DNA of 64,000 nucleotides from Halorubrum halodurans. GTDB lineage: Archaea > Halobacteriota > Halobacteria > Halobacteriales > Haloferacaceae. Made by a program: the position numbers and the translations under genes. The first letter of the stretch is position 1. The number at the start of each line of letters is the position of its first letter. The DNA lies in NCBI RefSeq assembly GCF_002252985.1, contig NZ_NHPJ01000094.1:1-64000 (forward strand), given 5' to 3'. A model generated the notes under the pieces. It was not told the origin of the DNA. It searched no databases and was given only the letters and a program-made list of their open reading frames with translations. Of this stretch, positions 12,912 through 28,365 are shown one piece after another.

Positions 12912-13059
12912 CGTGTGTCGTGGGGAGTCGCCCCGACGCTTACGGCGTCGGCGCGATCGGTCCGTCGGAACCCACGCGTCGCAAAACATAAACCTACGTC
13001 CTTTGGGATCCGTTCGCCCGACCGCAGCAACTAACCTCGCGCCGCCCGCAGTGGCCGAC

Positions 13060-14232: not shown

Positions 14233-14502
14233 ATGGGACTCGCCGGCGACCTCAAGGACGACCTCGTCGGGCTCGTCAGGAACCCGACCGACGAACAGAA
14301 GGCGATCCTGGTCGCGATCGTCGCCATCGCGGTCGCGGACCGCTACTTCCTCTGGATCGACTTCCCGTTCGTGGTGCGGACGACCGCCGCCGTCGGCGTC
14401 GGGTTCATCGCGCTGTTCGTCGCCAGCTACCTCCTCACCGGCCGTCTCGTTCCGCCGGACGAGGACGACGAGGAGGAGTACGACGACGAGCTCAGCCCGT
14501 AG
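14233..14502 (+). CDS. Small two-pass membrane protein, unknown function
   Basis: An 89-residue protein starting on the base after the aminotransferase stop. Two hydrophobic segments are visible, about residues 24-41 and 48-70, followed by a strongly acidic tail ([14 protein letters not shown]). No catalytic motif is seen. Tight linkage suggests co-expression with the aminotransferase, but nothing else points to a function. I do not recognise a named family. Confidence 0.75.
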
Positions 14503-14574
14503 GGCGCCCCCTCGCGGATCGGCGGATCGGCGGGAAGCGACGACGTCGACGCCGCAGCGACGACGTTCCAAACC

Positions 14575-14581
14575 GTTTATA
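14575..14581 (+). promoter_or_regulatory. TATA box of eif5A
   Basis: GTTTATA lies 25-31 nt before the aIF5A ATG with no Shine-Dalgarno between, so the transcript is probably leaderless. Confidence 0.65.
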
Positions 14582-14605
14582 CCCGCGCCGGGGGTAAGCC
14601 GGTGT

Positions 14606-14983
14606 ATGCCGCGAGAGCAGAAGCAGGTTCGAGAACTCCAGGAGGGGAGCTACGTCATGATGGACAGCTCGCCCTGCAAGATCAACCACTACAGCACCGC
14701 GAAACCCGGCAAACACGGGAGCGCCAAGGCCCGCGTCGAGGGCAAGGGCGTCTTCGACGAGAAGAAGCGCTCGCTCTCCCAGCCGGTCGACGCGAAGGTG
14801 TGGGTGCCGATCATCGAGCGGAAACAGGGCCAGGTCGTCTCCGTCTCCGGCGACGACGCGCAGGTCATGGACCTGGACACCTACGAGACGTTCACGATGC
14901 GGATCCCCGAGGGCGAGGACTTCTCCTCCGACGACACCATCGAGTACCTCGAGTACGAGGGCCAGCGCAAGGTCGTCGGGTAG
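14606..14983 (+). CDS. eif5A: Translation factor aIF5A
   Basis: A 125-residue archaeal eIF5A/EF-P homologue that relieves ribosome stalling. The modification loop [14 protein letters not shown] places the hypusinated lysine at residue 36; the C-terminal half ([16 protein letters not shown] onward) is the S1/OB-like domain. Its own TATA box gives a leaderless start. The agmatinase-like gene begins 4 nt after the stop. In Haloferax the aIF5A lysine is first modified with agmatine and the product then needs an agmatinase-like enzyme to become deoxyhypusine, so this pairing is functionally meaningful. Confidence 0.95.
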
Positions 14984-14987
14984 TCGG

Positions 14988-15812
14988 ATGTTCCCCGGAG
15001 CGACCGCCGACCGCGACGCGGCCTCGTACGTGGTCGTCGGCGCTCCCCTCGACGCCACGACCACGTTTCAACCCGGCACCCGGTTCGGACCCGACCGGGT
15101 CCGGCGCTTCTCCGAGACCTACGACGACTACGACCGCCGAACGGACAGCCACTTCTCCGCACTCGGCGTCCACGACGCGGGCGACGTCGCCCCCTGGGAC
15201 GACACGCGCGAGTACCTCGATCACCTCGCCGCCGAGCTCAGAAGCGTCGTCCTCGACGGCGCGATCCCGCTCGCCCTCGGCGGGGAACACACCGTCACCT
15301 ACGCCGGCGTGGAGGCGGTCGCCCCGGACACCCTCGTCGTCGTCGACGCCCACCTCGACCTCCGGGCGGAGTACGGCGGCAACCCGTGGAACCACGCGTG
15401 CGTCACCCGCCACGCGCTCGACGTCGTCAACCGGGCGGTGATCGTCGGCGCGCGCACCGGCTCCCCCGAGGAGTGGGACCGCGCCGCCGAAGGCGACGTC
15501 GAGGTCGTCGCGCCCGAGGACGCCCGCGGCTGGATCGACGACCTCGATCCGGGCCGGTTCGACGACGGGTCGACGTACCTCTCCGTCGACGTCGACGGGG
15601 TCGATCCGGGGTTCGCGCCCGGCACCGGGACGATGGAGCCGTTCGGGCTCCACCCGCGCGAGGTTCGCGACCTCGTGCGGACGGTCGCGCCGCACGCCGA
15701 GGGCTTCGACGTCGTCGAGGTGAACGACCGCGACGACGGCCAAGCCGCGGCGCTGGGGGGAAAACTGATCCGGGAGTTCGTCCACGCACACGCCGGCGGC
15801 TCGTCGACGTAG
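14988..15812 (+). CDS. speB: Agmatinase-like ureohydrolase
   Basis: A 274-residue ureohydrolase. The binuclear manganese ligands are in place: H101 in GGEH, D120/H122/D124 in VDAHLDLR, and D201/D203 in SVDVDGVDP. The family hydrolyses guanidino groups to release urea. The usual SHG loop is replaced by NPWNHACVTR, and the C-terminal GT..P.GG region reads GTGTMEPFG, so the substrate pocket differs from free-agmatine enzymes. Adjacent to eif5A, it may act on the agmatine-modified protein. Whether it acts on free agmatine or on aIF5A cannot be read from sequence. Confidence 0.9.
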   Translation: MFPGATADRDAASYVVVGAPLDATTTFQPGTRFGPDRVRRFSETYDDYDRRTDSHFSALGVHDAGDVAPWDDTREYLDHLAAELRSVVLDGAIPLALGGEHTVTYAGVEAVAPDTLVVVDAHLDLRAEYGGNPWNHACVTRHALDVVNRAVIVGARTGSPEEWDRAAEGDVEVVAPEDARGWIDDLDPGRFDDGSTYLSVDVDGVDPGFAPGTGTMEPFGLHPREVRDLVRTVAPHAEGFDVVEVNDRDDGQAAALGGKLIREFVHAHAGGSST

Positions 15813-15848
15813 GCCGTCAGGGTCGCGCGCGGCGCGTCGCCTCGTCTC

Positions 15849-16100
15849 TCAGTGGAGCTCGGAGAGCCGGCTGCGGGCGGCCGCGACCGCCTCCATGGTG
15901 TCGATCCACTCGCGGGTGTCGGTACACCAGATCCGGTCGCCCTCGACGCTGACGCAGAACACCGACTCCGAGGACGGCGAGAGGATCACGTCGTCGACGT
16001 CCGGTCGGTCGCCGAGGTAGGCGTCGATCAGGCGTCTGGCCGTCTCGGCCTCCGAACGGAGGCGGTTCCCGGAGGCGTACTCGATGGCAATCTCGGCCAT
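15849..16100 (-). CDS. Small protein with Rdx/SelW-like layout but no CxxC
   Basis: An 83-residue protein starting MAEIAIEYASGNRL. The order of elements (beta strand ending in EY, a helix AETARRLIDAYL, then VILSPSSESVFCVSVEGDRIW) recalls SelT/SelW/Rdx thioredoxin-like proteins, in which EY is followed by CxxC. Here those positions read A-S-G-N, so the redox pair is missing. A TATA-like element (TTATTAAT on the minus strand, about 16124-16131) lies 24-31 nt upstream of the ATG at 16100, favouring a leaderless start here over the in-frame codon at 16121. The family assignment is my inference from pattern only. Confidence 0.7.
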   Translation of the reverse strand: MAEIAIEYASGNRLRSEAETARRLIDAYLGDRPDVDDVILSPSSESVFCVSVEGDRIWCTDTREWIDTMEAVAAARSRLSELH

Positions 16101-16277
16101 ACCGGATCGTTGGATGTACACGATTAATAACTACTGTTTCCGGGCAGCGATTGCGGGGACCGGAGAGACGGAACGGGATGGACGCGGCGGAACGGAACAC
16201 GACGCGACGGAACGGGACGCGACGGAACGGAACGCTCCCGTCAGTCGTGACGGCGTCGGCCCGGCCGACCCGTGAGG

Positions 16278-16284
16278 CTATATT
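16278..16284 (+). promoter_or_regulatory. TATA box of the M20 peptidase gene
   Basis: CTATATT lies 22-28 nt before the ATG at 16306. This supports that ATG, with a leaderless transcript, over the TTG three codons upstream. Confidence 0.55.
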
Positions 16285-16305
16285 CCCCGCCGGACATTGC
16301 CGACC

Positions 16306-17631
16306 ATGACCACTCCGATTCACGAGCGACCGGCCGATCTGCTGTCGGAACTCGTTCGATTCGAGACCGTGAACCCGCCGGGCGGAGAGCGGGCCTGTAT
16401 CGAGTACGTCGACGGCCTTCTGACCGAGGCGGGGATAGCGACCGAGACGCTGGCCGCCGATCCCGAGCGACCGAACCTCCTCGCCCGCCTGCCGGGCGGC
16501 GACGCGCCGACGCTGCTGCTACAGGGCCACGTCGACGTGGTCCCCACGGAGGGACAGGAGTGGGACGAGCCGCCGTTCTCGGGGACGCGGAAGGACGGGT
16601 TCGTCTGGGGTCGCGGCACGCTGGACATGAAGGGGGGCGTCGCGATGATGGTCGCGGCGATGCTTCGGGCCGCCGAGGAGGGCGTCGAACCCGCGGGCGA
16701 CGTGCTGTTGGCGGTGCTCTCCGACGAGGAGACGGGCGGCGACGTCGGCGCGAGGTATCTCGTCGAGACCCACCCCGAGCGCTTCGCGGACGTGGAGTAC
16801 GCCATCGGCGAGTTCGGCGGCTTCCCGCTACGCATCGACGGGACGGAGTTCTACCCGATCCAGGTGGCGGAAAAGCGGGTCTGCTGGCTCGAGGCGACGG
16901 TGACCGGCCGCGGCGGCCACGCCTCTCGGCCGCAGCGCGACGGCGCGATGCACGCGCTCGGGGAGCTGCTCACCCGATTGACCGAGCAGCGCCTGCCCGT
17001 CCGCATCACGCCGCCCGCCCGGGAGTTCGTCGAGGCGATCGCCGCCGAGGCCGAACCCGAGCGAGCCGAGCAGTTACGGGGACTGTTGAACCCCGAACGC
17101 ACCGACGAGATCCTGGACGAGCTCGGCCCCGTCGCCGAGCGGTTGGACCCGATGCTTCACAACACGGTGAGCCCGACGGTCGTCGACGGCGGCGGGAAGG
17201 TGAACGTCCACCCGGCGGAGATCGACCTCCGCCTCGACGCGCGGCTGCTCCCGGGCGTGACGCCCGAGGAGTTCCTCGAGGAGGTCCGAGAGGTCGTCGG
17301 CGACGTCGAGGGCGTCGAGTTCGAGGTCACGCGGTTCGACGGCGGCGAGGGCAAGCGCGTCGACATGGGGCTGTTCGATCTGCTGTGCGACTCCCTGACG
17401 GAGAACCACCCCGAGGCCGTCCCTGTCCCGTTCCTGCTCACCGGCGCGACCGACGGGCGGTTCTTCGAGCAGCTGGACGTCCAGCCCTACGGGTACACCC
17501 CGCTGAAGCTCCCCCCGACGTTCGAGTTCGAGGCGCTGGTCCACGCCGCGAACGAGCGCGTTCCCGCCGAGGCCATCGCGTTCGGAACCGACACGCTCTC
17601 GACGGTGATCCGGGAGTACGGCTCCGCGTAG
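16306..17631 (+). CDS. M20 family metallopeptidase / deacylase (ArgE-DapE type)
   Basis: A 441-residue M20 enzyme. Zinc-binding motifs are visible: GHVDVVP (H75, D77), GRGTLDMKGG (D107), DEETGG with catalytic E141 and ligand E142, and a dimerisation domain with GRGGHASRPQRDGAMHAL. Members remove acyl groups from amino acids or cleave dipeptides (ArgE, DapE, CPG2, carnosinase). No neighbouring arginine or lysine biosynthesis gene helps to choose. It is the last core gene before the tRNA-Pro island, whose left boundary repeat begins 136 nt after its stop. Confidence 0.9.
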   Translation: MTTPIHERPADLLSELVRFETVNPPGGERACIEYVDGLLTEAGIATETLAADPERPNLLARLPGGDAPTLLLQGHVDVVPTEGQEWDEPPFSGTRKDGFVWGRGTLDMKGGVAMMVAAMLRAAEEGVEPAGDVLLAVLSDEETGGDVGARYLVETHPERFADVEYAIGEFGGFPLRIDGTEFYPIQVAEKRVCWLEATVTGRGGHASRPQRDGAMHALGELLTRLTEQRLPVRITPPAREFVEAIAAEAEPERAEQLRGLLNPERTDEILDELGPVAERLDPMLHNTVSPTVVDGGGKVNVHPAEIDLRLDARLLPGVTPEEFLEEVREVVGDVEGVEFEVTRFDGGEGKRVDMGLFDLLCDSLTENHPEAVPVPFLLTGATDGRFFEQLDVQPYGYTPLKLPPTFEFEALVHAANERVPAEAIAFGTDTLSTVIREYGSA

Positions 17632-17766
17632 GAGGAACGGCCGGCTTCCAGCGTTCGAATTCCGGATACCTGCCTCGACCGGAGGCGGACGACGTGGCGG
17701 ACGCCTTCGGGACACGCCGGCGGCAGCCTCGGGACGGTGCGGGTTCCTCGTTACCCGTGGTCGCAG

Positions 17767-17794
17767 AGTGGGGTGAAAACGGGCCGGCACGAAT
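17767..17794. repeat. Left attachment-site repeat (tRNA-Pro 3' fragment)
   Basis: This 28-nt stretch matches 25911-25938 with a single mismatch (C versus T at position 14). It consists of AGTGGGGTGAAAA followed by GGGCCGGCACGAAT. In the right copy the second part is the 3' end of an intact tRNA-Pro gene. The left copy therefore is a tRNA 3' fragment in direct orientation, as left by a site-specific integrase. No integrase gene remains between the copies. Confidence 0.8.
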
Positions 17795-17863
17795 GCTCCG
17801 AGGCACTCGGCGCGTCTACGTGCCTGAAAGCGAGAAGAGTCCTTGTCCGAGCGGTAGTGGGAG

Positions 17864-18850
17864 TTATCCGCTCGTTTCGTTCACCACTGTGATATTCGAC
17901 TCATTGGGATCGATCGCGACGCTATCGGTCCGTACGATCGTATCGGATCCATCGGCTGACCCGTTTTCGTCGATCATTTTGATGTTTGATTCGTCGATCT
18001 GTATCTCTACCCACGTGTGAGCGACGGTCTCCGAATCGAGATCGACGGTCAGCATGACTGTACTTCCGCTCCCGTCCGGATGCTCGAGTTTGATATCGAC
18101 GTGCTCGTCGGCAGTTGCCTCCACGACCGTTGCCTCCAACTCTGTCGCGTCTATGTGTGTCTGAACGTTGTAGCTGGCCTGCTCGTCGGCCACGATGAGA
18201 CGTTCTATCAGCTCCCGGTCGTCTCGTTCCAACACACCGATGTCGTTGCTGTAGTTCAACTCTACCGCGTCGAGATCGGGACGCGTAGTCTGGACCGTGA
18301 TCGTCTCGTTGGTCCGGTTCACCGTTCCCCGAACCAACGGAAGGCAGTCGTCAGTGGGTCGGACGCGGATCCCGGCAATATCCAGCGGCTCCTCGCGTGC
18401 TGTGGACTCGTAGTACTGATTAACCCGTACCTCCAGCTGGCTGTACTCGCTAAGTCCGACGCGATCGCCGGTCTGTTCAACGATGAGTTCGGCAAGCCGT
18501 TGACGGCCGATCTCGTCGACGACCGAACCATTATGATGGGAAACGAGGGTGACGGTCACGTCTTCGACCCGATGGCTGGTACCGTTTCGCTCCGTACTGT
18601 TCAGACGGAGAGCGCCGCCACACGTACGTTGAGCCTGGTGTAAGGTGTACTCGTCTCCGTCAGTCTGGGTTAGTGAGCCGTTGAACTGCTGCTGGTCTCC
18701 GTTCAGTTGCGCTACGTTGTCTTCATCGGCGGGATTGCCTGTCGCTTCCGGGGACAGGGTAGCTCCCGCGATGACGGCGATACCACTGGCAGCGAGCAGT
18801 ACAGTCGCGATACTGAGGGCGTATATCGCGAGTCTGTAGTCACGTTGCAT
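17864..18850 (-). CDS. Exported, membrane-anchored protein with PepSY-like pattern, unknown function
   Basis: A 328-residue protein with an N-terminal hydrophobic segment (about residues 9-30: YALSIATVLLAASGIAVIAG) acting as signal or anchor. The remainder is extracytoplasmic, polar and rich in N-glycosylation sequons, including several at the C-terminus (NESNITVVNETS). Two cysteines (in RTCGGAL and DDCLPL) could form a disulfide. The stretch VMLTVDLDSETVAHTWVEI resembles the closing strands of PepSY-type domains and echoes the C-terminus of the divergent protein at 19110. GC is clearly lower than in core genes. AAGGA precedes the ATG at 18850. I do not recognise a characterised family. Confidence 0.75.
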   Translation of the reverse strand: MQRDYRLAIYALSIATVLLAASGIAVIAGATLSPEATGNPADEDNVAQLNGDQQQFNGSLTQTDGDEYTLHQAQRTCGGALRLNSTERNGTSHRVEDVTVTLVSHHNGSVVDEIGRQRLAELIVEQTGDRVGLSEYSQLEVRVNQYYESTAREEPLDIAGIRVRPTDDCLPLVRGTVNRTNETITVQTTRPDLDAVELNYSNDIGVLERDDRELIERLIVADEQASYNVQTHIDATELEATVVEATADEHVDIKLEHPDGSGSTVMLTVDLDSETVAHTWVEIQIDESNIKMIDENGSADGSDTIVRTDSVAIDPNESNITVVNETSG

Positions 18851-19007
18851 GATTCTTGCTTCCTTCACACCGCTTGTGTCGTGTCATTGGTTGGTCCGAC
18901 GACAGCCGGGCGGGGACCGACGGAACGGCCACGGGTACCGTGGAGACGGACTCGGCCGATTGTGGGCGGTCGTCCGACTGCGTCACTTCACGCTTGTAAG
19001 AAAGTCC

Positions 19008-19015
19008 ATATAAAT
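19008..19015 (+). promoter_or_regulatory. TATA box of the exported protein / membrane-wHTH operon
   Basis: ATATAAAT is a strong archaeal TATA sequence. Transcription would start about 25 nt downstream, near 19038-19042, which is the left edge of the palindrome at 19040-19074. Confidence 0.6.
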
Positions 19016-19039
19016 CACAGTTGGAAACGGCTAGTGAAC

Positions 19040-19074
19040 ACGCCTGAAACGCGTTTCACAGGTGTTTCAGGCGT
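19040..19074. promoter_or_regulatory. Nested palindrome, likely operator
   Basis: ACGCCTGAAAC (19040-19050) and GTTTCAGGCGT (19064-19074) are perfect 11-bp inverted repeats with a 13-nt spacer. A second perfect 12-bp palindrome, GAAACGCGTTTC (19047-19058), overlaps the left arm, giving three TGAAAC/GTTTCA half-sites, with another GAAAACGCTGAAA just downstream. It sits at the predicted transcription start, which is a typical repressor position. The regulator encoded at 19903 is a candidate binder, by inference. Confidence 0.6.
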
Positions 19075-19109
19075 TGAAAACGCTGAAAATCATCAGATTC
19101 ATACTGCCG

Positions 19110-19766
19110 ATGTTTCGAAAGTCAACCATGCCCCAGGTCCCCTATTCCCGAGTGGTACTGGTCCTCTCGCTAGCCGTCCTCGCAAGCAGTATTGCGGTGT
19201 TTGGCAGCGCTACTGGCATCACTCCGGACAAAACCCACGAGTTCACTATTGAGGATGGTGCGTTCGTCGTTACAACCGGTAGTGGCCAGCACGTGCTGGT
19301 CGAAGACGCTCACACGATCAATCGAATCGAGATCAGCCATGAAGACAGCCGCTACCTCGTTCAAACAGTCAACCACGGCCCACCCCCGGTAGACGCGCAG
19401 ACACGCCTGCGTGTACGGCAGATCGTCACGTCCGCCGAGATCGTCGGCAGCGATGTCCCACCGGCGAACAGTGCTGCGTATACTGTCCGTCGGATCCCGT
19501 CACGCCTCCCCAGCGATCGTGCGGCAGTCATCGGAGCAACAGCGAACGAATCCCTACAGACGGTGATCTCTCCTAACGCCTCCGCGTTCACTGTCCGACA
19601 AAATGACGGCAGCATCGTTTTCGAGCGGCGCGAATCGTGGTGGAGTGGCGATCGGATGCTCGTCGTCGTGACGCCGAACGAATCCGGAACACGGTACAGT
19701 GCTGTGGTTAATCTCCGCACCGAGACCGTCGAATCACTCGTTCGACTCGACAGAGGTGACCGATGA
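19110..19766 (+). CDS. Exported protein with PepSY-like C-terminus, unknown function
   Basis: A protein of 218 residues from the ATG at 19110 (ATG at 19128 is also possible). An N-terminal hydrophobic segment (VVLVLSLAVLASSIAVFG) follows a short basic region, so it is exported or anchored. The body is polar, and its end, YSAVVNLRTETVESLVRL, parallels VMLTVDLDSETVAHTWVEI in the divergent gene at 17864. Its stop TGA overlaps the ATG of a 47-codon ORF, which in turn overlaps the next gene, so the three are translationally coupled. An in-frame GTG at 19062 lies inside the palindrome and is less likely. No catalytic motif is recognised. Confidence 0.72.
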   Translation: MFRKSTMPQVPYSRVVLVLSLAVLASSIAVFGSATGITPDKTHEFTIEDGAFVVTTGSGQHVLVEDAHTINRIEISHEDSRYLVQTVNHGPPPVDAQTRLRVRQIVTSAEIVGSDVPPANSAAYTVRRIPSRLPSDRAAVIGATANESLQTVISPNASAFTVRQNDGSIVFERRESWWSGDRMLVVVTPNESGTRYSAVVNLRTETVESLVRLDRGDR

Positions 19767-19906
19767 GAAATATCGGCCCCACCTACAATCGGATTGATCT
19801 CCGTGGTCAGACACTGGTACAGTTCCTCTTCGTCACCAGCCAAACCGAACCCCCGGAGTGGGGGAGACTCAGGTCGATCAACGGTCACACCGGTGAAACG
19901 AGATGA
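19763..19906 (+). CDS. Small coupled ORF (47 residues), unknown
   Basis: This ORF begins with MRNIGPTYNRIDLRGQ and ends with NGHTGETR. Its ATG overlaps the stop of the exported-protein gene and its TGA overlaps the ATG of the membrane-wHTH gene, both as ATGA. Such double coupling is hard to explain by chance and suggests it is translated, either as a product or as a bridge that carries ribosomes to the regulator gene. No transmembrane segment or motif is seen. Confidence 0.5.
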   Translation: MRNIGPTYNRIDLRGQTLVQFLFVTSQTEPPEWGRLRSINGHTGETR

Positions 19907-20454
19907 CACAGATATCTTCCCGACCGCGCTCTGAACTCCTCGCTGTCGGTATCTTTGTCACTGCTGTAACGATCCTCGTCACGCAGTTCATAAGCGCAAC
20001 GCCAGCCGCCGTCGCGGTTGGTGACGAGAGTACACGAATTGGGAATCTCGGATGGCAATTCACGCTCCGCGACGTGGCCCTCATTACTATTTCAGCGTAT
20101 GCCGCCGGCGGAAGCACGATCGTACTCCTCACCGAGGCGGATCCGACGTCGTCGACGATCGCGGACGCCGAGCAAACGGACGCTTCCACACGGCAGTCTA
20201 CCAGCGAGTCCAGTAACGAGCTACTGGAGGCCCGCAGAGAGGAGTGGGAAACCGTTTCGGAACGACTCACGAGCAACGAGGAGGTGGTTTATCAGGCGGT
20301 GCTCGAGGCCGACGGCGTCCTCCCACAGAGCGAGATAGTCGACCGGACAGACCTCTCAAAAGCGACAGTCAGCCGTACGCTCGATAGTCTGGAGGCGAAA
20401 AACCTCGCCGAGCGAAAGCGCCACGGCATGGGGAACACGGTACTGCTTACGTAG
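19903..20454 (+). CDS. Membrane-anchored winged-helix transcription regulator
   Basis: A 183-residue protein. Two hydrophobic segments (about residues 12-31, LLAVGIFVTAVTILVTQFI, and 55-75) anchor it. A polar linker follows, and residues 105-183 form a MarR-like winged helix: EEVVYQAVLEADGVLPQSEIV, then DLSKATVSRTLDSLEAKNLAER with the recognition helix and a basic wing. Haloarchaea have membrane-bound wHTH proteins of this layout that may sense signals at the membrane. It is the last gene of the coupled operon behind the nested palindrome, so autoregulation is plausible. The exported partner may act as sensor or ligand. Confidence 0.8.
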   Translation: MTQISSRPRSELLAVGIFVTAVTILVTQFISATPAAVAVGDESTRIGNLGWQFTLRDVALITISAYAAGGSTIVLLTEADPTSSTIADAEQTDASTRQSTSESSNELLEARREEWETVSERLTSNEEVVYQAVLEADGVLPQSEIVDRTDLSKATVSRTLDSLEAKNLAERKRHGMGNTVLLT

Positions 20455-20928
20455 GCTGGCCGTCGTGAGTACGATCATAACGGCATACTTCCCCGACTGA
20501 CCGCCTGTAGTCACGCAGATTTGAGGGGCCGCGATCCGATACACGAACTGTTTGCTGCGCCGCCGCGCTAGTTCGCTTCAGCCGATGACGAGCGAACTCG
20601 TCTTCGCCACCGTTTCACGGTGGTTCGTAACGTGGTGGGGTCCCCCCTGTGATTTCACTTCCGCACACGCGCGTGCGTAAGCGCCCGACCACGACAAGCG
20701 ATCGATATTTCCGGCGAGTGACCGTCAGATTCCGAAAAAAGACTTACAGAGACCCTCAATCGGTGATTGGTTTCTGCGGGTGTGCTGAATACAGAGCGCG
20801 AATCGGGTAGAAGACATTTGCCAGACGAACCACGGGACTGAACCATTAGCGGGCACCGTGACGACTCGGATCGTGTTGGGCGTTCTCACCACGCAAAAGC
20901 TATTCTGTGGGGTCGCCTGCGTCGGCAC
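20455..20928. other. 474-bp gene-free stretch with a dispersed repeat
   Basis: No supportable gene is seen. The right half holds copy 1 of the island's dispersed repeat. A TATA-like CAAAAGCTATTC lies about 35 nt before the DMT transporter GTG. Confidence 0.6.
20665..20803. repeat. Dispersed non-coding repeat, copy 1
   Basis: Begins ACACGCGCGTGCGTAAGCG and ends TGCTGAATACAGAGCGCGAA. It aligns along its length with 24129-24259, sharing GATCGATA, GATTCCGAAAAAAGAC and TTGGTTTCTGCGGGTGTG with substitutions and small indels. Similarity also reaches upstream (CGAACTCGTCTTCGCCACCG near 20590 versus CGAGTTCGTCTTCGTCACCG near 24101). A third piece of the right edge, GAATACAGAGCGCGTAT, occurs at 21944-21960. 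It probably derives from an old mobile element, but no transposase frame survives. Confidence 0.65.
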
Positions 20929-21846
20929 GTGAAGCGCTACGAGAACGCCCTCGGGTTCCTCGCGCTCGCCGCCCTCTGGGGCGCCTCCTATCCCGCTATA
21001 CGCGCCGCGAAAGCGGGCGTCGAGCCGCTGCTGATGGCCGCACTCCGGTTCGACGCCATCGGCGTCGTCGTCCTCGGCTACGCACTCGCCCGCAGCCAAC
21101 AGGTCCGCCCCACCAGCGCCGACACCACGGCTATCCTGATCGGTGGTGTCGGCATGATCGCTGTCCACAACGGCCTCCTCTTCGTCGGCCAGACCATGGT
21201 CACTGGGGCCGTCGGCGCGGTCGTCCTCGCCACCGTCCCCATCTGGAGCGTCGCGTTCGCCGTCGTCGCTCTCGACACCGCCCGCCCGACGCCCACGCGC
21301 GTCTTCGGTATCCTCCTCGGCCTCGTCGGCACCAGCATCCTCGTCGTACCCGGCCCCACCGACATACAGCCACCCGACCCACTCGGCGTCACACTCATGA
21401 CCGCGAGCGCGGTCACGTTCGCGCTCGCCGCCGTCGCCCTCCGCCGCGAAACCCCCACGCTCGGCGTCGCCGCCCGCCAGGGCTGGATGATGCTCGTCGG
21501 CGGCATCGTCCTCCACGTCGCCAGCCTCGCCCGCGGCGAACCCCAGACCGTCGCACTCACCCCGGACGTACTCATCGCGTTCGGGTTCCTCGTGCTCGCC
21601 GCCGGCGTCGTCGGCTACCTCCTCTACTACACGCTCCTAGACCGCCTCGGTCCCGTCGAGGTCAACCTCTTCGGGTACGTCGCCCCCGTGTTCGCCGCCA
21701 TAACCGGATGGCTCTTCCTCGACGAACGCCTCGCCGCGACCACCGTTGTCGGCTTCCTCGTCATCGCCGTCGGCTTCGTGCTCGTCAAACGCGACGCTAT
21801 TCGCGACGCGCTCATCGACGAGGCCGTACCAGCGACCGGCGACTAA
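20929..21846 (+). CDS. EamA/DMT-superfamily transporter
   Basis: A 305-residue membrane protein with ten predicted transmembrane helices arranged as two EamA repeats. Motifs include AALWGASYPAIRAA at the start, ALRFDAIGVVVLGYALAR, and in the second repeat GPVEVNLFGYVAPVFAAITGWLFLDE, a hallmark of the drug/metabolite transporter superfamily. Members export amino acids, nucleosides or toxic compounds; the substrate is unknown. The start is GTG (20929). Codon use leans to C-ending codons (GCC, CGC, CCC) more than neighbouring core genes, consistent with a different origin within the island. Confidence 0.88.
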   Translation: MKRYENALGFLALAALWGASYPAIRAAKAGVEPLLMAALRFDAIGVVVLGYALARSQQVRPTSADTTAILIGGVGMIAVHNGLLFVGQTMVTGAVGAVVLATVPIWSVAFAVVALDTARPTPTRVFGILLGLVGTSILVVPGPTDIQPPDPLGVTLMTASAVTFALAAVALRRETPTLGVAARQGWMMLVGGIVLHVASLARGEPQTVALTPDVLIAFGFLVLAAGVVGYLLYYTLLDRLGPVEVNLFGYVAPVFAAITGWLFLDERLAATTVVGFLVIAVGFVLVKRDAIRDALIDEAVPATGD

Positions 21847-22149
21847 CTGGCTCGACCAGCAACCGCCGTCCTCGCGGCGGTCGTCTGCTACTCGGTTGGC
21901 CTTTGTTGAACCCTCCAACGGCGACACCTCCTCCATTCGCGTGGAATACAGAGCGCGTATCTCCCACAGAACCATTCTCCAACTTGATCAGAGTAGATCG
22001 CACAGTACAGCCTCTGTATCTCGCACACCGATCCTATCAGTTCCAAAGGTTTTCAACAGAGCCGCTGACGACGGATTTCCGGGAGTCCACATCAAAGCCT
22101 CACCTCATGGATCGAGCCGCATTTGTGCCGAGGGAGTCGGTGGGGCGGT
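21847..22149. other. 303-bp gene-free stretch
   Basis: No supportable gene is seen. It contains CCGCCGTCCTCGCGGCGG, a GC-rich hairpin just after the DMT transporter stop, and the repeat fragment GAATACAGAGCGCGTAT at 21944-21960. GC is lower than in the flanking genes. Confidence 0.5.
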
Positions 22150-22992
22150 TTACACGAGGGCTGGAGCGACGCCGAGGGCGGCGGTTCCGAGAAGGACCGC
22201 GCCGTATCCGGTAGCGACGAGGAATACCGTGCGTCGGGGATGGTCGACGAGGCCCCGACGGTGTCCGGCTGCCGCGAGGTAGCCAGTCAGCGGCAACAGC
22301 TGGAGGGCGTGGAGGCCGACGAAGTGCGCAAGGCGAAGGTCTCCGACGAGCTGCCAGCCGACGACCGGGACCGTTGGCTCCGTCGTCTCGACGACCCGTG
22401 ACTGGATCGCGATCATCGCCGCTCCTTCGAACGCGCCGACGACGAACCACCCGATCCCGAGGAGGATGCCCGCGGCGAACGCCGGATGGACGTCGAAGGC
22501 GTTGCCGCGCGCGCGGACCGCCAGCGCGGCGATCGCGACGGTGACGACGACGATCGTGACGCCCATCACCCCTCCGATCGCCGCGTCGAGGACCGTCGCC
22601 CGATTGAAGTGGGACCCGACGCCGCGAGCGGCCTGTCCGCCGATGAGGGCGATCTCAAGGAGGAGACCGACGCCGACGATCCGGGAGACGCGGCGGCGAA
22701 CGTCCGGGTCGACCGGGAGGTGGACGCCGAGCCAGCCGAGCGTCGCGCACGCGAGCGCGATCGAGCCGGCGAACTTCGTCGGCTTAAGCCACGCCGGTTC
22801 CCCGTTGACGACCGTCGGGTCGAGGACGATGCCGACGGCGAAGACACCGAACAGAACGGCGTTGATCGCGGCCACGGCGGACAGAACCGGGTCGCGGCGC
22901 CGTAGCTCTCCGATCGACGTGGCCATCGTCCGCGCGATCGCCCGTAGCGTCGTCCGTCCTCTCGTGGCTACAGCGGCCGACTCGGAGTTCAT
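22150..22992 (-). CDS. Multi-pass membrane protein, unknown function
   Basis: A 280-residue integral membrane protein with about seven hydrophobic segments. Conserved-looking polar motifs inside or between helices are GEPAWLKPTKFAGSIALACA, GGQAARGVGSHFNRAT, and VGDLRLAHFVGLHALQLLPL with histidines in the last helices. This layout recalls an uncharacterised bacterial membrane family with WLKP.KF, ARG..SHFN and GDLR.AHF.GLH motifs (from memory, without a family number). The histidines could bind a metal or haem, but that is conjecture. It is transcribed divergently from the HTH_10 regulator across a 76-bp gap holding a perfect palindrome, so the regulator probably controls it. Confidence 0.75.
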   Translation of the reverse strand: MNSESAAVATRGRTTLRAIARTMATSIGELRRRDPVLSAVAAINAVLFGVFAVGIVLDPTVVNGEPAWLKPTKFAGSIALACATLGWLGVHLPVDPDVRRRVSRIVGVGLLLEIALIGGQAARGVGSHFNRATVLDAAIGGVMGVTIVVVTVAIAALAVRARGNAFDVHPAFAAGILLGIGWFVVGAFEGAAMIAIQSRVVETTEPTVPVVGWQLVGDLRLAHFVGLHALQLLPLTGYLAAAGHRRGLVDHPRRTVFLVATGYGAVLLGTAALGVAPALV

Positions 22993-23029
22993 ACCGTCGT
23001 GTTACCGGGCGATTCATGTGTGTGTGACC

Positions 23030-23041
23030 CCAACATGTTGG
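23030..23041. promoter_or_regulatory. 12-bp perfect palindrome in a divergent promoter
   Basis: CCAACATGTTGG lies between the starts of the membrane protein (22992, minus) and the HTH_10 regulator (23069, plus). Its position fits an operator controlling one or both genes. Confidence 0.45.
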
Positions 23042-23068
23042 CATCTGCTCGATGCGGCAGTGATCGAC

Positions 23069-23704
23069 ATGATCGACGCTCGGTTCCGCATTCGCCTCCC
23101 GCCGGACCTGTACATCGCCGACCTGTCGGAGGCGTTCCCCGACGCGACGTTTCGACTGCTGTCCGGCGTCCGCAGCGGCGCCACCGCGAAGGAACTCGGT
23201 GAGGTGCTGACTCCGGCTCCGGGGTCGGTCGCGGCGGCGTTTCGCGAGCACGATGCGGTCGACGCGTACGAGGTGTTGGAACGCACCGACGACCGGCTCC
23301 TCACGACGTACGAGACGACCGACGTCGACCTCTACGCCTTCGTCGAGGCCGGGGGATTCCCGCCCGAGTTTCCGATCGAAGTGCGGAACGGGTTCTACGA
23401 GTTCGACCTGACCGGCACTCGCGAGGAGTTCGACCAGCTCCGAGAGACGCTGGAAACGAGCGGTACCGAGTACGAACTCCTCTCGAAGGTGAACAAGAAG
23501 CGGGCGGACCGACTCCTCACACGCCGACAGGAGGAGCTCCTCGCCGCCGGCCTCAGAGAGGGGTACTTCGAGGTCCCGCGAGGGTGTACCCTGGCGGATC
23601 TCGCCGACGCGGTCGGCGTGGACAAGTCGACCGCGAGCGGGATCGTCCGCCGGGCGCAGGCGCGGCTTATCGCGTGGTACCTGACCGACGTGACGGCCGA
23701 GTGA
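23069..23704 (+). CDS. HTH_10 (Bat-like) transcription regulator
   Basis: A 211-residue regulator. The N-terminal part (MIDARFRIRLPPDLYIADLS...) is the sensory-like domain of small bacterio-opsin-activator-type proteins, with ERTDDRLLTTYET typical of the fold. The C-terminal HTH_10 domain reads LTRRQEELLAAGLREGYFEVPRGCTLADLADAVGVDKSTASGIVRRA when pieced together (about residues 152-200). HTH_10 proteins control metabolic or stress genes in haloarchaea. An in-frame GTG at 23060 is an alternative start. The divergent membrane protein is the likely target; no ligand is evident. Confidence 0.87.
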   Translation: MIDARFRIRLPPDLYIADLSEAFPDATFRLLSGVRSGATAKELGEVLTPAPGSVAAAFREHDAVDAYEVLERTDDRLLTTYETTDVDLYAFVEAGGFPPEFPIEVRNGFYEFDLTGTREEFDQLRETLETSGTEYELLSKVNKKRADRLLTRRQEELLAAGLREGYFEVPRGCTLADLADAVGVDKSTASGIVRRAQARLIAWYLTDVTAE

Positions 23705-24501
23705 CGGGCGGGCGGGTTCGTCACGATTCCTCGCACAGATCTGCTCCGTTGAATCCCCAGAAGGCGTCGGGATCGGATCACTCCGTACTCGGTGTAGGAG
23801 CGATGTCGAGGGAATTCAGCCGATGGATCTGCGCAGAGAAAGAGCGGATCGAGACCACGGGATGGATCCCGTCCAACTCATCGACGACGACGAACGAGAT
23901 AACCCCGTTCTCGGCGATCGAGACCCCGTGTCATCGCCGGATCCAACGGAGCACCGGAAGCCGAAACGATCGACCGGTCGCTCGATCCCCGCCTCGAAAC
24001 CCGACCCGTAGGTCCGCTCGTTTTCTCTCGTCGAGCCGTTCGCTGAGCGCTCGTCCGACCGTCCTCGACGTCGAGTGGCTCCCTCGCTCCAGCTGCTCGA
24101 CGGGCGAGTTCGTCTTCGTCACCGTCCCATTCGCGCGTGCGTGAGCGCCGCGACCGCGACGGCGATCGATAGCTCCGGCGATCGACCGACGGATTCCGGA
24201 AAAAAGACCCTCGACCGGTCATCGGTTTCTGCGGGTGTGCCGAATACGGGGCGCGTATCCCACACGGCACCTGACGAGAGCTGTCTCTCCCGTGAACGAA
24301 CGCGTCCGAGGTCGATACGGTCCGAGGTCCCGACCGATCGTGGTCTTCCAGGGCAGGCCGAACTCGAACGGGTCACGTGGCTGCTCGACAACGAGTTCGA
24401 CGCTGATGTCGCCGTGCGCGAGAGTGACGCGGCTGCGGGCGAGTTCGCGTCGAGGGTCGAACCCCGAAGGCCGGCGACCCGTATTTCCGACGAGGACTGG
24501 A
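23705..24501. other. About 800-bp gene-free stretch with repeats and debris
   Basis: No convincing coding frame is seen on either strand. Codon use in all open frames is unlike neighbouring genes. It contains copy 2 of the dispersed repeat (24129-24259). The rest is probably decayed sequence, possibly from mobile elements, but I cannot name a source. Confidence 0.5.
24129..24259. repeat. Dispersed non-coding repeat, copy 2
   Basis: Begins ATTCGCGCGTGCGTGAGCG and ends GCCGAATACGGGGCGCGTAT. It matches 20665-20803 along its length at reduced identity and in the same orientation. Confidence 0.65.
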
Positions 24502-24846
24502 TCAGTGAGCCGGGGTATGTGCGCCCGAGACCGTCGTCAACAGCACGATTCCGACGAGTATGAGACCGACGCCGACGACTGCGGCCGGGTCGATCGACTC
24601 GCCGAAGAAAACGAGACCGATCGCCGTCGTCCCGACGATACCGACGGCTGACCAGATCGCGTACACCTTCCCGATCGGCAGCGCTTCCAGAGCCAGCCCG
24701 AGGAAGTAAAACGAACTCAGATATCCGACGACCACGCCGCCGGTCGCGACGTAGTTTGAGAACCCGTCCGACAGTTTGAGCGCGGTCGTCCCGACCAGTT
24801 CCGCTGCGATCGCGAGCGCGAGCGCCAGCACCAGCGCGGGATTCAT
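24502..24846 (-). CDS. Small multidrug resistance (SMR) family transporter
   Basis: A 114-residue four-helix protein of the EmrE/SugE group. Helix 1 carries the essential membrane glutamate in AIAAELVGTTALKLSDGF, helix 2 is VATGGVVVGYLSSFYFLGLAL, and helix 3 contains AIWSAVGIVGTTAIG with the conserved tryptophan. EmrE-type dimers exchange protons for cationic drugs; SugE/Gdx types export guanidinium. The SDGF-then-YV.TG pattern looks more like the EmrE branch. The frame is open further upstream, but ATG at 24846 begins the recognised NPALVLALAL. It is divergent from the TrmB regulator at 24982. Confidence 0.9.
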   Translation of the reverse strand: MNPALVLALALAIAAELVGTTALKLSDGFSNYVATGGVVVGYLSSFYFLGLALEALPIGKVYAIWSAVGIVGTTAIGLVFFGESIDPAAVVGVGLILVGIVLLTTVSGAHTPAH

Positions 24847-24981
24847 GGCCGGATCGAGGCCGACTACGGGAAAGTAGGTTCTCCAATGTGTTGCCACTTG
24901 CTCTCCGTTGTGGAACGATAACGGTGAGTTCATCCTGTAGTAGACCGTCAGCGTTTCTTCGACCGTGGGTGAACGCGGGAT

Positions 24982-25776
24982 ATGAGCGACCTCGTCGAGC
25001 TAGGGCTATCAAACTACGAAGCCAGAGTCTACCGGACACTGCTCGGTCTCGGATCCGCCCCAGCGCGGACGATCTCGGAGGCCAGCGAGGTTCCTCGAGG
25101 CCGGATCTACGACGTTCTGAACGTCCTCAACGGTCGCGGTCTCATCAGGACACACGACTCCCGAGACCCAACCCACTACACGGCCGTCGACCCCGACACT
25201 GCCGTCGACAGTCTGCTGGACGAGCGGAGGCGCGAACTGTCCGAACGGCGTAGGCACTACGAGTCGGTCGCCGAGTCAGTGAGCGAGCGACTCTCACCGG
25301 CGATACCCAAAGAGAGTCGCTTCTGGGCAGCTTCCCTCGGAAGCGAAGATGCTCTCTCGCTCGCTAGTGACCAGCAGGAGATCGCCGAGGATCGTATCAC
25401 GTCCGTGGTCGCCGCACCTTACGAGAACGCGCCGTGGAAGCGGTACGCTTCCGAGATCGACGTTATCGAGCGTGAGATGGACCCGTCGCTGGACGTTCGC
25501 GTGCTCTGCAGCGAGGATCTGCTCTCCGGGGTCGATGCCGCGGTTCGTGAGGATCTCCTTGGTCTTTCAGCAAACCTCGCCGTCCGGGAGACACCAGACG
25601 TCTCGATCACTGCCGACGTCGTCGATGGGCACACAGTCTACGTACACGTCGCCGATCCGTTCGATCCGAGCGAGCGACTCGGGGTCGTCGCGGTCCGGGA
25701 CGAAACGTTCGCGGACTCCATGGAAACCGCCTTCGAGAGCGCATGGGGGGATGCTCGACGGATTTCGGGTCCGTGA
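24982..25776 (+). CDS. TrmB family transcription regulator
   Basis: A 264-residue protein. The N-terminal TrmB winged helix is clear: LGLSNYEARVYRTLLGLG, then ISEASEVPRGRIYDVLNVLNGRGLI. A coiled helix (LLDERRRELSERRRHYESV) follows, with a C-terminal ligand-binding domain. TrmB proteins respond to sugars or other small molecules. This one faces the SMR exporter across a 135-bp divergent promoter, so control of efflux is a reasonable inference. It is the last gene before the right attachment repeat. Confidence 0.87.
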   Translation: MSDLVELGLSNYEARVYRTLLGLGSAPARTISEASEVPRGRIYDVLNVLNGRGLIRTHDSRDPTHYTAVDPDTAVDSLLDERRRELSERRRHYESVAESVSERLSPAIPKESRFWAASLGSEDALSLASDQQEIAEDRITSVVAAPYENAPWKRYASEIDVIEREMDPSLDVRVLCSEDLLSGVDAAVREDLLGLSANLAVRETPDVSITADVVDGHTVYVHVADPFDPSERLGVVAVRDETFADSMETAFESAWGDARRISGP

Positions 25777-25910
25777 TACGGGAAGGATCCGCCGAGTCAG
25801 CCGTTCGTTATACGCTCCGACCGCTCGACCGACGTTACTTGTGGGCCCCGATTCACGCCCGTCCCGTAGGTTTCACGCCCGCTACGGATCCGTCGCTATC
25901 GTCGGTGCGA

Positions 25911-25938
25911 AGTGGGGTGAAAATGGGCCGGCACGAAT
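25911..25938. repeat. Right attachment-site repeat, overlapping the tRNA-Pro 3' end
   Basis: This copy pairs with 17767-17794. Its last 15 nt are the 3' end of tRNA-Pro on the minus strand and the first 13 nt lie just downstream of the tRNA. The intact tRNA at this end places the island on its 3' side, from here back to 17767. Confidence 0.8.
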
Positions 25939-25996
25939 TTGAATCGTGGTTACGGCCACCCGAAGGCCGAAGGATACCAAGCTACCCCACCGGCCC
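25924..25996 (-). tRNA. tRNA-Pro (CGG anticodon)
   Basis: Read on the minus strand, the 5' acceptor GGGCCGG pairs with CCGGCCC before the discriminator A. The D-arm is GGGT/ATCC. The anticodon stem CGGCC/GGCCG closes the loop TTCGGGT, giving anticodon CGG. The T-arm is CACGA-TTCAAAT-TCGTG. CCA is not encoded. Its 3' end served as the attachment site of the 17.8-25.9 kb island. Two unpaired bases between the D and anticodon stems, where one is usual, should be checked by a covariance model. Confidence 0.88.
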
Positions 25997-26020
25997 GCAT
26001 CCCAACGGAGGCCGTTCGTT

Positions 26021-26028
26021 CTTTTAAT
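26021..26028 (-). promoter_or_regulatory. TATA box of tRNA-Pro
   Basis: On the minus strand this reads ATTAAAAG, 25-32 nt upstream of the tRNA 5' end, as expected for an archaeal tRNA promoter. Confidence 0.55.
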
Positions 26029-26061
26029 CCTTCCGAAAACGGGGTCGGCGGCATCGGCGGG

Positions 26062-26445
26062 TCAGGGTTCGAAGTACCGGTCTCGGTGCGCGCGGCAGCC
26101 GGGATTGAACGCGGCCCCGCAGCGCGGACAGGCGTCGTCGCAGTCGAGGTACTCGCGGGCGCTCAGCCGCCCACGGCAGCGCCCGCAGAACACTACAGGC
26201 TCGTCGAACCGGTCGCGGGGCCACGGCTCCGCGTCGTGGTCGGCCGCCGCGTCGTGACAGCTCGCACACGGGTAGTACGTCTCACAGCAGCCGAACCGCA
26301 GGGCGATCACGTCGACCGCGGCGTGCCAGTGGGCACACCGGGTCCGGGGATCGACCGCCACCCCACGAAGGGGGACGGGGAACCGGTCGTCGAGCGCGGG
26401 AGCGTAGGTCGTCCGCGTCGCGTCGGGGTCGTCGGCGTCGCTCAT
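26062..26445 (-). CDS. CHY zinc finger protein
   Basis: A 127-residue zinc protein. The region CAHWHAAVDVIALRFGCC, then YYPCASCHD, CGRCRGRLSAREYL and CPRCGAAFNPGCRAH is the CHY-type zinc finger with Cys/His ligands binding several zinc ions. The domain is about 90 residues and fills most of the protein; the first 30 residues are a polar leader. A Shine-Dalgarno-like GGAG precedes the ATG at 26445. It starts 14 nt after trmY on the same strand, so they are likely co-transcribed. In eukaryotes this domain occurs in ubiquitin ligases; the archaeal role is unknown. Confidence 0.88.
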   Translation of the reverse strand: MSDADDPDATRTTYAPALDDRFPVPLRGVAVDPRTRCAHWHAAVDVIALRFGCCETYYPCASCHDAAADHDAEPWPRDRFDEPVVFCGRCRGRLSAREYLDCDDACPRCGAAFNPGCRAHRDRYFEP

Positions 26446-26459
26446 CTCTCCGCTCCCGT

Positions 26460-27056
26460 TCAGTACGCGGTGTAGCCGTCCGTGTCGAGCCAGTTGTGGA
26501 CGACCGAGACGGTGTGGTCGGCGTGGAGCCGTTCGGGGCCGACGCGAAGCCGCCGGTCGCACGCCTCCGCGAGCAGCGACGACTCCGTCTCCGAGAAGTC
26601 GTGATGGTCCGAGAGGACGAACACCGGATCGGCCGGCGGCTCCGCGTCGACGAGCGGGTCGCCCGCCTCGTGAAGCTGGACGAGCGATCCCTCGGCGGCC
26701 AGCCGGTCGAGCGTCCGCGACAGTCCCATCCGACGCAGCTCCACGCCGGGAGAGACGTCCGCCGGCATGTGGCCGATCGCGTCCTCGCGGGCGGCGAGTG
26801 CGTCACGGACCCGCGCGGCGACGTTCCGCTCGTCGGGGTGGAGGTGTCGAAGGGTCGCGGCGTCGAACGTGACGGTGAACTCGTCGGCACAGACGAGGTG
26901 GACCCTGGCGTCCTCGCGGATGCCGTGTGAGAGGAAGACGCCGGTCGACACGCATCGACAGAGCAGGTCGAGCCGGCCCGCGCCGGGGATGTCCGAAAGG
27001 GAGATCGCGTCCGGGTCGGTGGGGACGTCGTGGCCGACGACGACGAACTGGCGCAT
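26460..27056 (-). CDS. trmY: tRNA (pseudouridine-54-N1)-methyltransferase
   Basis: A 198-residue SPOUT methyltransferase that converts pseudouridine 54 in the tRNA T-loop to N1-methylpseudouridine, an archaeal counterpart of ribothymidine. It starts MRQFVVVGHDVPTDPD and contains LSDIPGAGRLDLLCRCVSTGVFLSHGI, HLHPDERNVAARVRDAL and the knot motif VFVLSDHHDFSE. All are typical of TrmY. The gene leads the trmY-CHY pair and is divergent from the small zinc finger gene. Confidence 0.93.
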   Translation of the reverse strand: MRQFVVVGHDVPTDPDAISLSDIPGAGRLDLLCRCVSTGVFLSHGIREDARVHLVCADEFTVTFDAATLRHLHPDERNVAARVRDALAAREDAIGHMPADVSPGVELRRMGLSRTLDRLAAEGSLVQLHEAGDPLVDAEPPADPVFVLSDHHDFSETESSLLAEACDRRLRVGPERLHADHTVSVVHNWLDTDGYTAY

Positions 27057-27106
27057 ACGGGCCGGTCCGCCCGAACCGTGATAAGCGCCCCGGCCGACGG
27101 TCGACC

Positions 27107-27274
27107 ATGAGCGTCACCGGACTCTGTCAGATCTGTGAGAACGCCCCGGCACGGCACGGCTGTCGGTACTGCGGACGCCAGGTCTGCCGCGACCACTGGA
27201 ACGAGGCGGTCGGCGCGTGTACCCCGTGTGCGGAGTCGTCGGGCGTCGACGACTCGGACGGATCGACCGGCTAG
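27107..27274 (+). CDS. Small HIT-type-like zinc finger protein
   Basis: A 55-residue protein almost entirely made of a treble-clef-like zinc site: CQICENAPARHGCRYCGRQVC, then DHW and CTPC. The spacing C-x2-C, C-x2-C, C-x3-H, C-x2-C resembles HIT-type zinc fingers. The tail is acidic and disordered. Proteins this small may bind RNA or a protein partner; no function is assigned. It is divergent from trmY (50 nt) and its last 4 nt overlap the pyrF end in convergent orientation. Confidence 0.78.
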   Translation: MSVTGLCQICENAPARHGCRYCGRQVCRDHWNEAVGACTPCAESSGVDDSDGSTG

Positions 27275-28101
27275 CGGTGCCGGTTCAGCCGCCGCTTCAG
27301 TCGTTTCGCCGCGTCGCCGGCGGCCCCGAAGTACGTCGCCTCGTCGTCGGACCGAGCCGCCTCCTCGCCGGCGAAGACGATCCCCCGCGAGGAGTTGACC
27401 AGTCCGACGTCGACGTCGACGCCCGGATACGCCGCGAGTCCGTGTTCAACCGCCGCCTCGGCGTCGCCGCCCTGCGCGCCGACGCCGGGGACGAGGAACG
27501 GTATCTCCGGGACGATCGCTCTGACCTCCGCGAGCTCCTCGGGCGTGGTCGCGCCGACGACGAGGCCGACGTTCCCGTTGGCGTTCCAGCCGTCCGCGAG
27601 CGCGGCGACGCGCTCGTACAGCGGCTCGCCGGAGTCGAGCTCGAGGTCCTGGAGGTCGCTCCCGCCCGGATTCGACGTTCGGCAGAGCACGAACACGCCC
27701 GCGTCCTCCCGGTCGAGGAACGGCTGGAGCGAGTCGCGACCCATGTACGGGTTCACCGTGATCGCGTCGACCCGCTCCAACACCTCGGCGTACTGCCGCG
27801 TGGTGTTGCCGATGTCGGCGCGTTTGGCGTCGAGGAGGACCGGAACGTCCTTGCCGGCCGCATACGCGACGGTCTCCTCGAGCGCGCGCCAGCCGTCGGC
27901 GTCCTCGTAGAAGGCCGCGTTCGGCTTGTAGCAGGCCGCGTGCTCGTGGGTCGCGTCGATGATACGCCGGTTGAACGCCCATCGCGGCAGGTCGGCGTCG
28001 GAGAGGAACGACGGGATCCGGTCCGGGTCCGGGTCGAGTCCGACGGAGACGACGCTGTCGGCCCGTTCGATCCGATCCGCGAGCCGCTCGAAGAAGCGCA
28101 T
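27271..28101 (-). CDS. pyrF: Orotidine 5'-phosphate decarboxylase
   Basis: A 276-residue OMP decarboxylase completing UMP synthesis. Active-site residues are in VLLDAKRADIGNT (D91, K93, D96), with substrate contacts VSVGLDPD near residue 20, CYKPNAAFYE, and the phosphate loop LVPGVGAQGGD. The sequence is of the longer subfamily (about 270 residues) seen in haloarchaea, actinobacteria and some proteobacteria. carB, which feeds the same pathway, lies upstream on the same strand, separated by 264 bp that hold a duplicated non-coding element. Confidence 0.93.
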   Translation of the reverse strand: MRFFERLADRIERADSVVSVGLDPDPDRIPSFLSDADLPRWAFNRRIIDATHEHAACYKPNAAFYEDADGWRALEETVAYAAGKDVPVLLDAKRADIGNTTRQYAEVLERVDAITVNPYMGRDSLQPFLDREDAGVFVLCRTSNPGGSDLQDLELDSGEPLYERVAALADGWNANGNVGLVVGATTPEELAEVRAIVPEIPFLVPGVGAQGGDAEAAVEHGLAAYPGVDVDVGLVNSSRGIVFAGEEAARSDDEATYFGAAGDAAKRLKRRLNRHR

Positions 28102-28174
28102 ATCCGGTGTCTTGCGGCTTCCGGACTAAGCGTTGTGTTCCACGCCGGAGCGGGCGGGCTCGTCGAACCCGGCC

Positions 28175-28310
28175 GGATCCGGGAGGCGAGACGACGGTTC
28201 AAACCCGATAGGGCCGCACGCCCGCCGTGAGCTGAGAGCCGCCCCGCGGCGGCCGAGGCGGGTGTGTGGCGATCCGCCGCGGGAACCGACCACGCCGCCG
28301 CCTGTTCGCC
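28175..28310. ncRNA. Duplicated non-coding element, copy A
   Basis: A GC-rich element of about 136 nt that aligns from end to end with 43237-43374. Shared blocks in the same order are GGATCCG, CGGTTCA(A/T)ACCCGAT, CCGTGA(G/C)CTGA, CGCGGCGGCCGAGGCGGG, CCGCCGCGG, CGACC and CTGTTCGCC, separated by segments of nearly equal length with different sequence. Constant spacing with variable loops suggests a structured RNA or a conserved 3'-UTR or terminator element. It lies 56 nt after the carB stop. The strand and any transcription are not known. Confidence 0.5.
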
Positions 28311-28365
28311 ACGTCTCGCCGGCAGCGACGCGACTCCCGGTCGCGGACCGATCCGTCCCGGCGTG

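Follow-up and report, generated by a model that had tools for sequence, protein, structure and literature searches.

A probable decayed composite genomic island at a tRNA-Pro integration hot spot in Halorubrum halodurans

A 64,000-nucleotide stretch of the archaeon Halorubrum halodurans (positions 1 to 64,000 of contig NZ_NHPJ01000094.1, assembly GCF_002252985.1; contig C4 of our genome G000, which is 94.9% complete), hereafter the window, contains an interval of accessory genes (17767-25938) ending at a proline tRNA gene, which we consider probably to be a decayed composite genomic island at a tRNA-Pro integration hot spot. The attachment gene is an intact tRNA-Pro(CGG) on the minus strand (25924-25996), with the core TGGGCCGGCACGA(AT) in its 3' end (25924-25938). 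This end forms part of a 28-nt direct repeat: the tRNA-side copy (25911-25938) consists of 15 nt of the tRNA (25924-25938) and 13 nt of its flank (25911-25923), and a second, apparently displaced copy at 17767-17794 matches it at 27 of 28 positions and is followed by an arm, gctccgaggcac..., found only in the window and in one relative, G018. An earlier note, made from the letters of the window, had described the tRNA and the repeat in just this form. The single mismatch sets a C at 17780 against the T at 25924, which is the discriminator base of the tRNA; the 13-nt tRNA-Pro core is accordingly exact at the tRNA and preserved at 12 of 13 positions in the left copy. Ungapped extension enlarges the pair to 39 nt at 85% identity (17756-17794 and 25900-25938). 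The homology of the left flank is short, as it might be if the repeat had arisen by chance in a variable intergenic region of the ordinary sort; that explanation is refuted by the data: the copies agree at 27 of 28 positions while the next-best match within the window reaches 17 of 28, the 28-mer occurs at these two places only in the whole genome at up to two mismatches (a search the earlier note had proposed), its reversed control pattern has no match in any of 59 genomes, and the left copy is kept in G018. Since G018 is an independent near-complete genome with the same copy in the same context, the left copy cannot be put down to faulty assembly. A diverged copy of an entire 131-bp flank block (of the class F2 described below) to the left of 17767 was also considered, and its alignment gave no convincing gain over shuffled sequences; we therefore claim extension of the homology for ~40-50 nt only.

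The composition changes directly past the left copy, where the guanine-cytosine (GC) content falls from ~0.70 to 0.56-0.60; for the interval as a whole it is 0.627 as against 0.689 for the window. The GC content at third codon positions (GC3) is arranged in blocks, with 0.92-0.97 in the left-flank genes, then 0.65-0.69 in island genes 1-3, 0.85-0.89 in genes 4-6 and 0.73-0.76 in genes 7 and 8. The first block is a trio comprised of an exported or membrane-anchored protein of no family (17864-18868, minus strand), an exported protein with no convincing family (19062-19766, plus) and a likely membrane-anchored protein with a winged-helix domain of the DUF7343/MarR type (19903-20454, plus). For the last of these we examined an assignment to Csa3/CARF and rejected it, the weak matches reflecting the helix-turn-helix only. 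A non-coding dispersed repeat (20573-20806) separates the trio from an EamA-type (DMT) transporter gene (20929-21846, plus), which is followed by a mobile gene pair, viz., a membrane protein without family (22150-22992, minus) and its partner, a regulator of the HTH_10 (Bat) type (23060-23704, plus). Next come an element of ~213 bp at 23746-23958 that resembles a miniature inverted-repeat transposable element (MITE) and has many copies in the genus, and a second dispersed repeat (23957-24259). The idea that the former, first delimited as a repeat at 23741-23953, is an integrase-linked sequence was dropped, as its terminal inverted repeats make it a MITE. The dispersed repeats were confirmed at 20655-20804 and 24119-24259, and match non-coding repeats that lie close to Int2-type recombinases of 203 aa, both in G060 and in the window's own genome (contig C32). 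The part specific to the window holds a small multidrug resistance (SMR) transporter gene (24502-24933, minus) and a TrmB-type regulator with TrmB and DUF7436 domains (24982-25776, plus), and the interval closes with the flank adjoining the tRNA (25845-25923; truncated on its left side, with an approximate left edge), of a class we call F2 that is common to nine other genomes. The drop in GC at the left end, the differences in codon use between genes and the dispersed repeats between them had all been noted earlier and were recovered here. No RNA families were found in 15000-28500, no phage DNA match to the island was found and no defence systems were recognised in it.

The modules of the island have separate histories, and its left-hand genes, foreign in composition, occur on Haloarcula plasmids. 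The trio (17864-20454) is present in the same order and orientation on plasmid pNYT2 of Haloarcula taiwanensis (BVU17_18345-18355), genes 1 and 2 matching at 73.5% DNA identity and gene 3 by position only; it is plasmid-borne there and chromosomal, at tRNA-Pro, in the window. Within the genus the whole trio stretch was found only in G018 and another relative, G011. The EamA module has a 94-95% identical relative at a different place in G008, and the stretch with the mobile pair (22008-23783) has a second copy, at 89%, in the same genome (G000:C43, L152) and also occurs on plasmids and chromosomes of several relatives. The island further matches plasmid NZ_CP030065 of Halorubrum sp. PV6, and no DNA relative of the SMR and TrmB genes was detected in the genus at the sensitivity used. 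The foreign composition and restricted distribution that mark tRNA-targeted islands are thus both found here.

The tRNA-Pro itself was compared across 51 other genomes of the genus; its 3' side was taken from ~50 genomes, and all copies of the tRNA 3' end were listed. The adjoining sequence falls into four classes, namely a plain flank F1 (28 genomes), the flank F2 (10), an arm P_A (7) and an arm P_B (7), the classes being set by simple string rules and less certain for three genomes with variant tRNA sequences. The ten F2 loci take in the window and G037, which belongs to another family. Displaced cores lie 12,028 (G062), 12,135 (G023), 12,994 (G026) and 874 bp (G028) from the tRNA in the P_B class, and ~19.3 kb (G059) and ~33.9 kb (G005) from it in the P_A class. 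Their polarity, host flank followed by core and foreign arm, is that predicted for insertion into a tRNA end: in G062, G026 and G023 the displaced P_B core TGGGCCGGCACGA has F1 or F2 before it and a foreign arm after it, and in G059 and G005 the displaced P_A core reads F1, core, tgtacatct. A tyrosine integrase adjoins the displaced core in all five of these genomes, the P_A and P_B enzymes being 64-65% identical, and ~150 bp of the P_A right end are common to seven loci. The G059 element also encodes a PCNA-like protein, a 203-aa recombinase related to Int2 of PhiCh1, phiH and ChaoS9, and a methylase-like protein, so named from its sequence only. The 3' end of tRNA-Pro(CGG) is therefore a recurrent tyrosine-integrase integration hot spot in the genus, with one shared core.

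The P_B integrase encoded in G026 shares 94% identity with that of Humcor2 (MW344764), an alphapleolipovirus provirus of Halorubrum coriense published as integrated at tRNA-Pro with a 13-bp attachment (att) site (PMC7911831). The annotated attP of Humcor2 matches tRNA-Pro over the same 13 nt and has the same arm as G062; the P_B family is a Humcor2-like pleolipovirus provirus. For these sister elements, insertion by a Humcor2-type integrase at the tRNA 3' end is established by their anatomy and by the published provirus. Humcor2 and its relatives in G026, G023 and G062 share the tRNA-Pro 3' end and the 13-nt core with the window. Humcor2, however, is a complete virus of 11.8 kb, and none of its genes for integrase, Rep, spike and ATPase was found in the window island. 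The P_A elements (G059, G005, G020 and a remnant in G018) use the same core as the window, from which, by contrast, the P_A arm and genes for integrase, PCNA and methylase are all absent. The dispersed repeats of the window resemble those near Int2-type recombinases like the one inside the G059 element.

The closest relatives of the locus show that the content between the copies varies, as anticipated in the earlier note. From the left flank to 23775, G018 runs collinear with the window at ~96%, and in a diverged form it does so to ~24259; the left 6.5 kb of the island are thus shared, ending with the second dispersed repeat. Its left copy, however, lies 13,774 bp from the tRNA, and what adjoins the tRNA is the P_A arm, so that the left and right ends in G018 belong to different element types. 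An integrase remnant persists there in the form of a truncated gene, at a distance of 91 bp from the tRNA; it begins with the first part of the P_A end gene and continues as the C-terminal two thirds of an Int2-type recombinase, the two having apparently been joined by a deletion at a short repeat. G011 (~90%) is collinear over the M20 peptidase gene that borders the island on the left and the first three island genes (2.6 kb), and then carries different genes. The earlier note had held that relatives with all these genes in order and no repeat would refute insertion; G011 fits this in part, having M20 and the three genes without the left copy, although its remaining content differs. At the G011 junction where the left copy would be, there is what we take to be an IS200/605-like end, a 30-nt sequence that recurs in two other genomes, and its P_A arm adjoins a second tRNA 3' end, degenerate in sequence, that lies at a distance of 131 bp from the tRNA.

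These relatives bear on the simplest account of the locus, that of the earlier note, by which a single 8,144-bp element inserted once, is bracketed by its own attL (17767) and attR (25911), and has since only lost its integrase. It agrees with the unique 28-nt direct repeat, found where one would expect it, with the foreign composition of the left part and with the confinement of the content to near relatives. We nevertheless regard it as unlikely: the supposed right end carries F2, which nine other genomes have at the tRNA without this island; in G018 that left copy lies at 13,774 bp and is paired with another right end; and the modules differ in history, with GC3 in blocks. Of the proposed tyrosine-integrase insertion, what stands is its recurrence at this tRNA 3' end across the genus, and what is not supported is one insertion delimited by its own two att sites.

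The left flank introduces a further complication. The M20 peptidase (16306-17631, plus) is not the ancestral neighbor of the tRNA: it adjoins the locus in G018 and G011 only, and the synteny kept with G061, G060, G063 and G025 stops near 16160, ahead of it. The thyA-AAT-eIF5A-speB block to the left of the island (12001-17631) is rearranged, AAT-eIF5A-speB lying ~8 kb away on the other side of tRNA-Pro in many relatives; the DNA that follows the block in G061 and G060 lies ~211 kb from the tRNA in G018, and in G067 thyA adjoins the tRNA instead. The predicted empty site, with M20 joined directly to tRNA-Pro, was found in none of the 51 other genomes of the genus. As the left flank is not ancestral, such a site was hardly to be expected, and its absence would not by itself count against insertion. 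A tRNA-Pro without a displaced core is common among relatives, with left flanks that differ from that of the window. The same facts invite the alternative that the 17767 copy is a by-product of rearrangement, a 3' piece of tRNA-Pro having been carried to the M20 side with the thyA-eIF5A-speB move, and that the genes in between are accessory genes of a breakpoint region. The position of AAT-eIF5A-speB beyond the tRNA in many relatives, the neighbor of the block in G061 and the end of conserved synteny ahead of M20 are what this would lead one to expect. It is rendered very unlikely by the repeat ending inside the tRNA near the 13-nt integrase core, by displaced copies of that core in six other genomes or more, an integrase adjoining the copy in five of these, and by the element arm and integrase remnant at the tRNA of G018.

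The reading we judge best is that elements were stacked at the tRNA and that deletion and exchange followed. The left copy is built like a displaced att site, from which we infer that insertion at the tRNA also took place in the lineage of the window. Each insertion would rebuild the tRNA with the arm of the incoming element beside it and shift the old tRNA 3' end, together with its flank, outward to become a displaced copy. The 17767 copy would be one such displaced att site, predating the split of the window genome from G018. Later insertions, deletions and exchanges may then have produced the patchwork of plasmid-type trio, EamA gene, mobile pair, MITE, and SMR and TrmB genes, and would also account for the loss of the integrase and, in the case of the window, of the element arm next to the tRNA; what remained was probably an island unable to excise by itself. 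Several observations weigh against this history. What adjoins the tRNA in the window is F2 and not an element arm, a lack that can be explained, short of proof, by later deletion or exchange. The left copy carries C where the core has T, and its flank homology is not significant past ~40-50 nt. The arm after it (gctccgag...) is unlike that of any complete element seen. None of the genomes has this locus minus the island, and the left flank, too, is a product of rearrangement.

The absence of an integrase, which the earlier note had recognised, extends beyond the island: no integrase families were found among the island proteins, and neither the window nor its own genome, 94.9% complete, has a tRNA-Pro-type integrase, the best match being at 40%. 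Integrases are commonly lost from old islands, and their absence is not decisive; in G018, which has the left half of the window island and ends in a P_A arm, the remnant survives. The sequence following the left copy, gctccgaggcactcggcgcg, occurs elsewhere among the loci compared only in G018. It might mark a third element family, with the arm gctccgaggcac... after the core, that used the same core as the pleolipoviruses and P_A elements, a possibility we put forward tentatively and hold to be somewhat doubtful. Were it true, tRNA-Pro(CGG) in Halorubrum would be a landing pad shared by unrelated elements, which compete and stack there and decay into islands peculiar to each species.

Taken singly, the window holds an ordinary genomic island of a kind already known. 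A one-species survey of Halorubrum ezzemoulense describes genomic islands near tRNA genes with mutually exclusive content at equivalent positions (PMC11078007), and these are, like the window island, accessory DNA near tRNA genes. Across the genus, mobile DNA of at least two kinds, and perhaps of three, has repeatedly entered at one tRNA gene, where stages from complete provirus to gutted island can be seen side by side. This makes the locus a convenient one at which to study how islands in archaea build up by stacking and how their integrases disappear.

Some further features of these loci were recorded. Int2-type recombinases of 203 aa, 90-97% identical to each other, are found inside different elements (G059, G000:C32, G072 and G060; L090, L159, L163, L169); two of them lie within ~6 kb of tRNA-Lys, and some are accompanied by recurring non-coding repeats. 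In G005 (L100, L173) tandem copies of ~90 bp containing an N occur at both att ends, and these resemble assembly artefacts described for the Hrr. coriense draft (PMC7911831). In several genomes (L071, L077, L078, L079, L080, L123) the 3' half of tRNA-Pro is repeated in degenerate form ~131 bp downstream of the gene, and this second copy can itself be used as an attachment site, as the case of G011 illustrates. Close to the attachment tRNA, at 26460-27056 of the window, lies trmY, coding for the tRNA pseudouridine-54 N1-methyltransferase, and it has a like position in the relatives with genes called.

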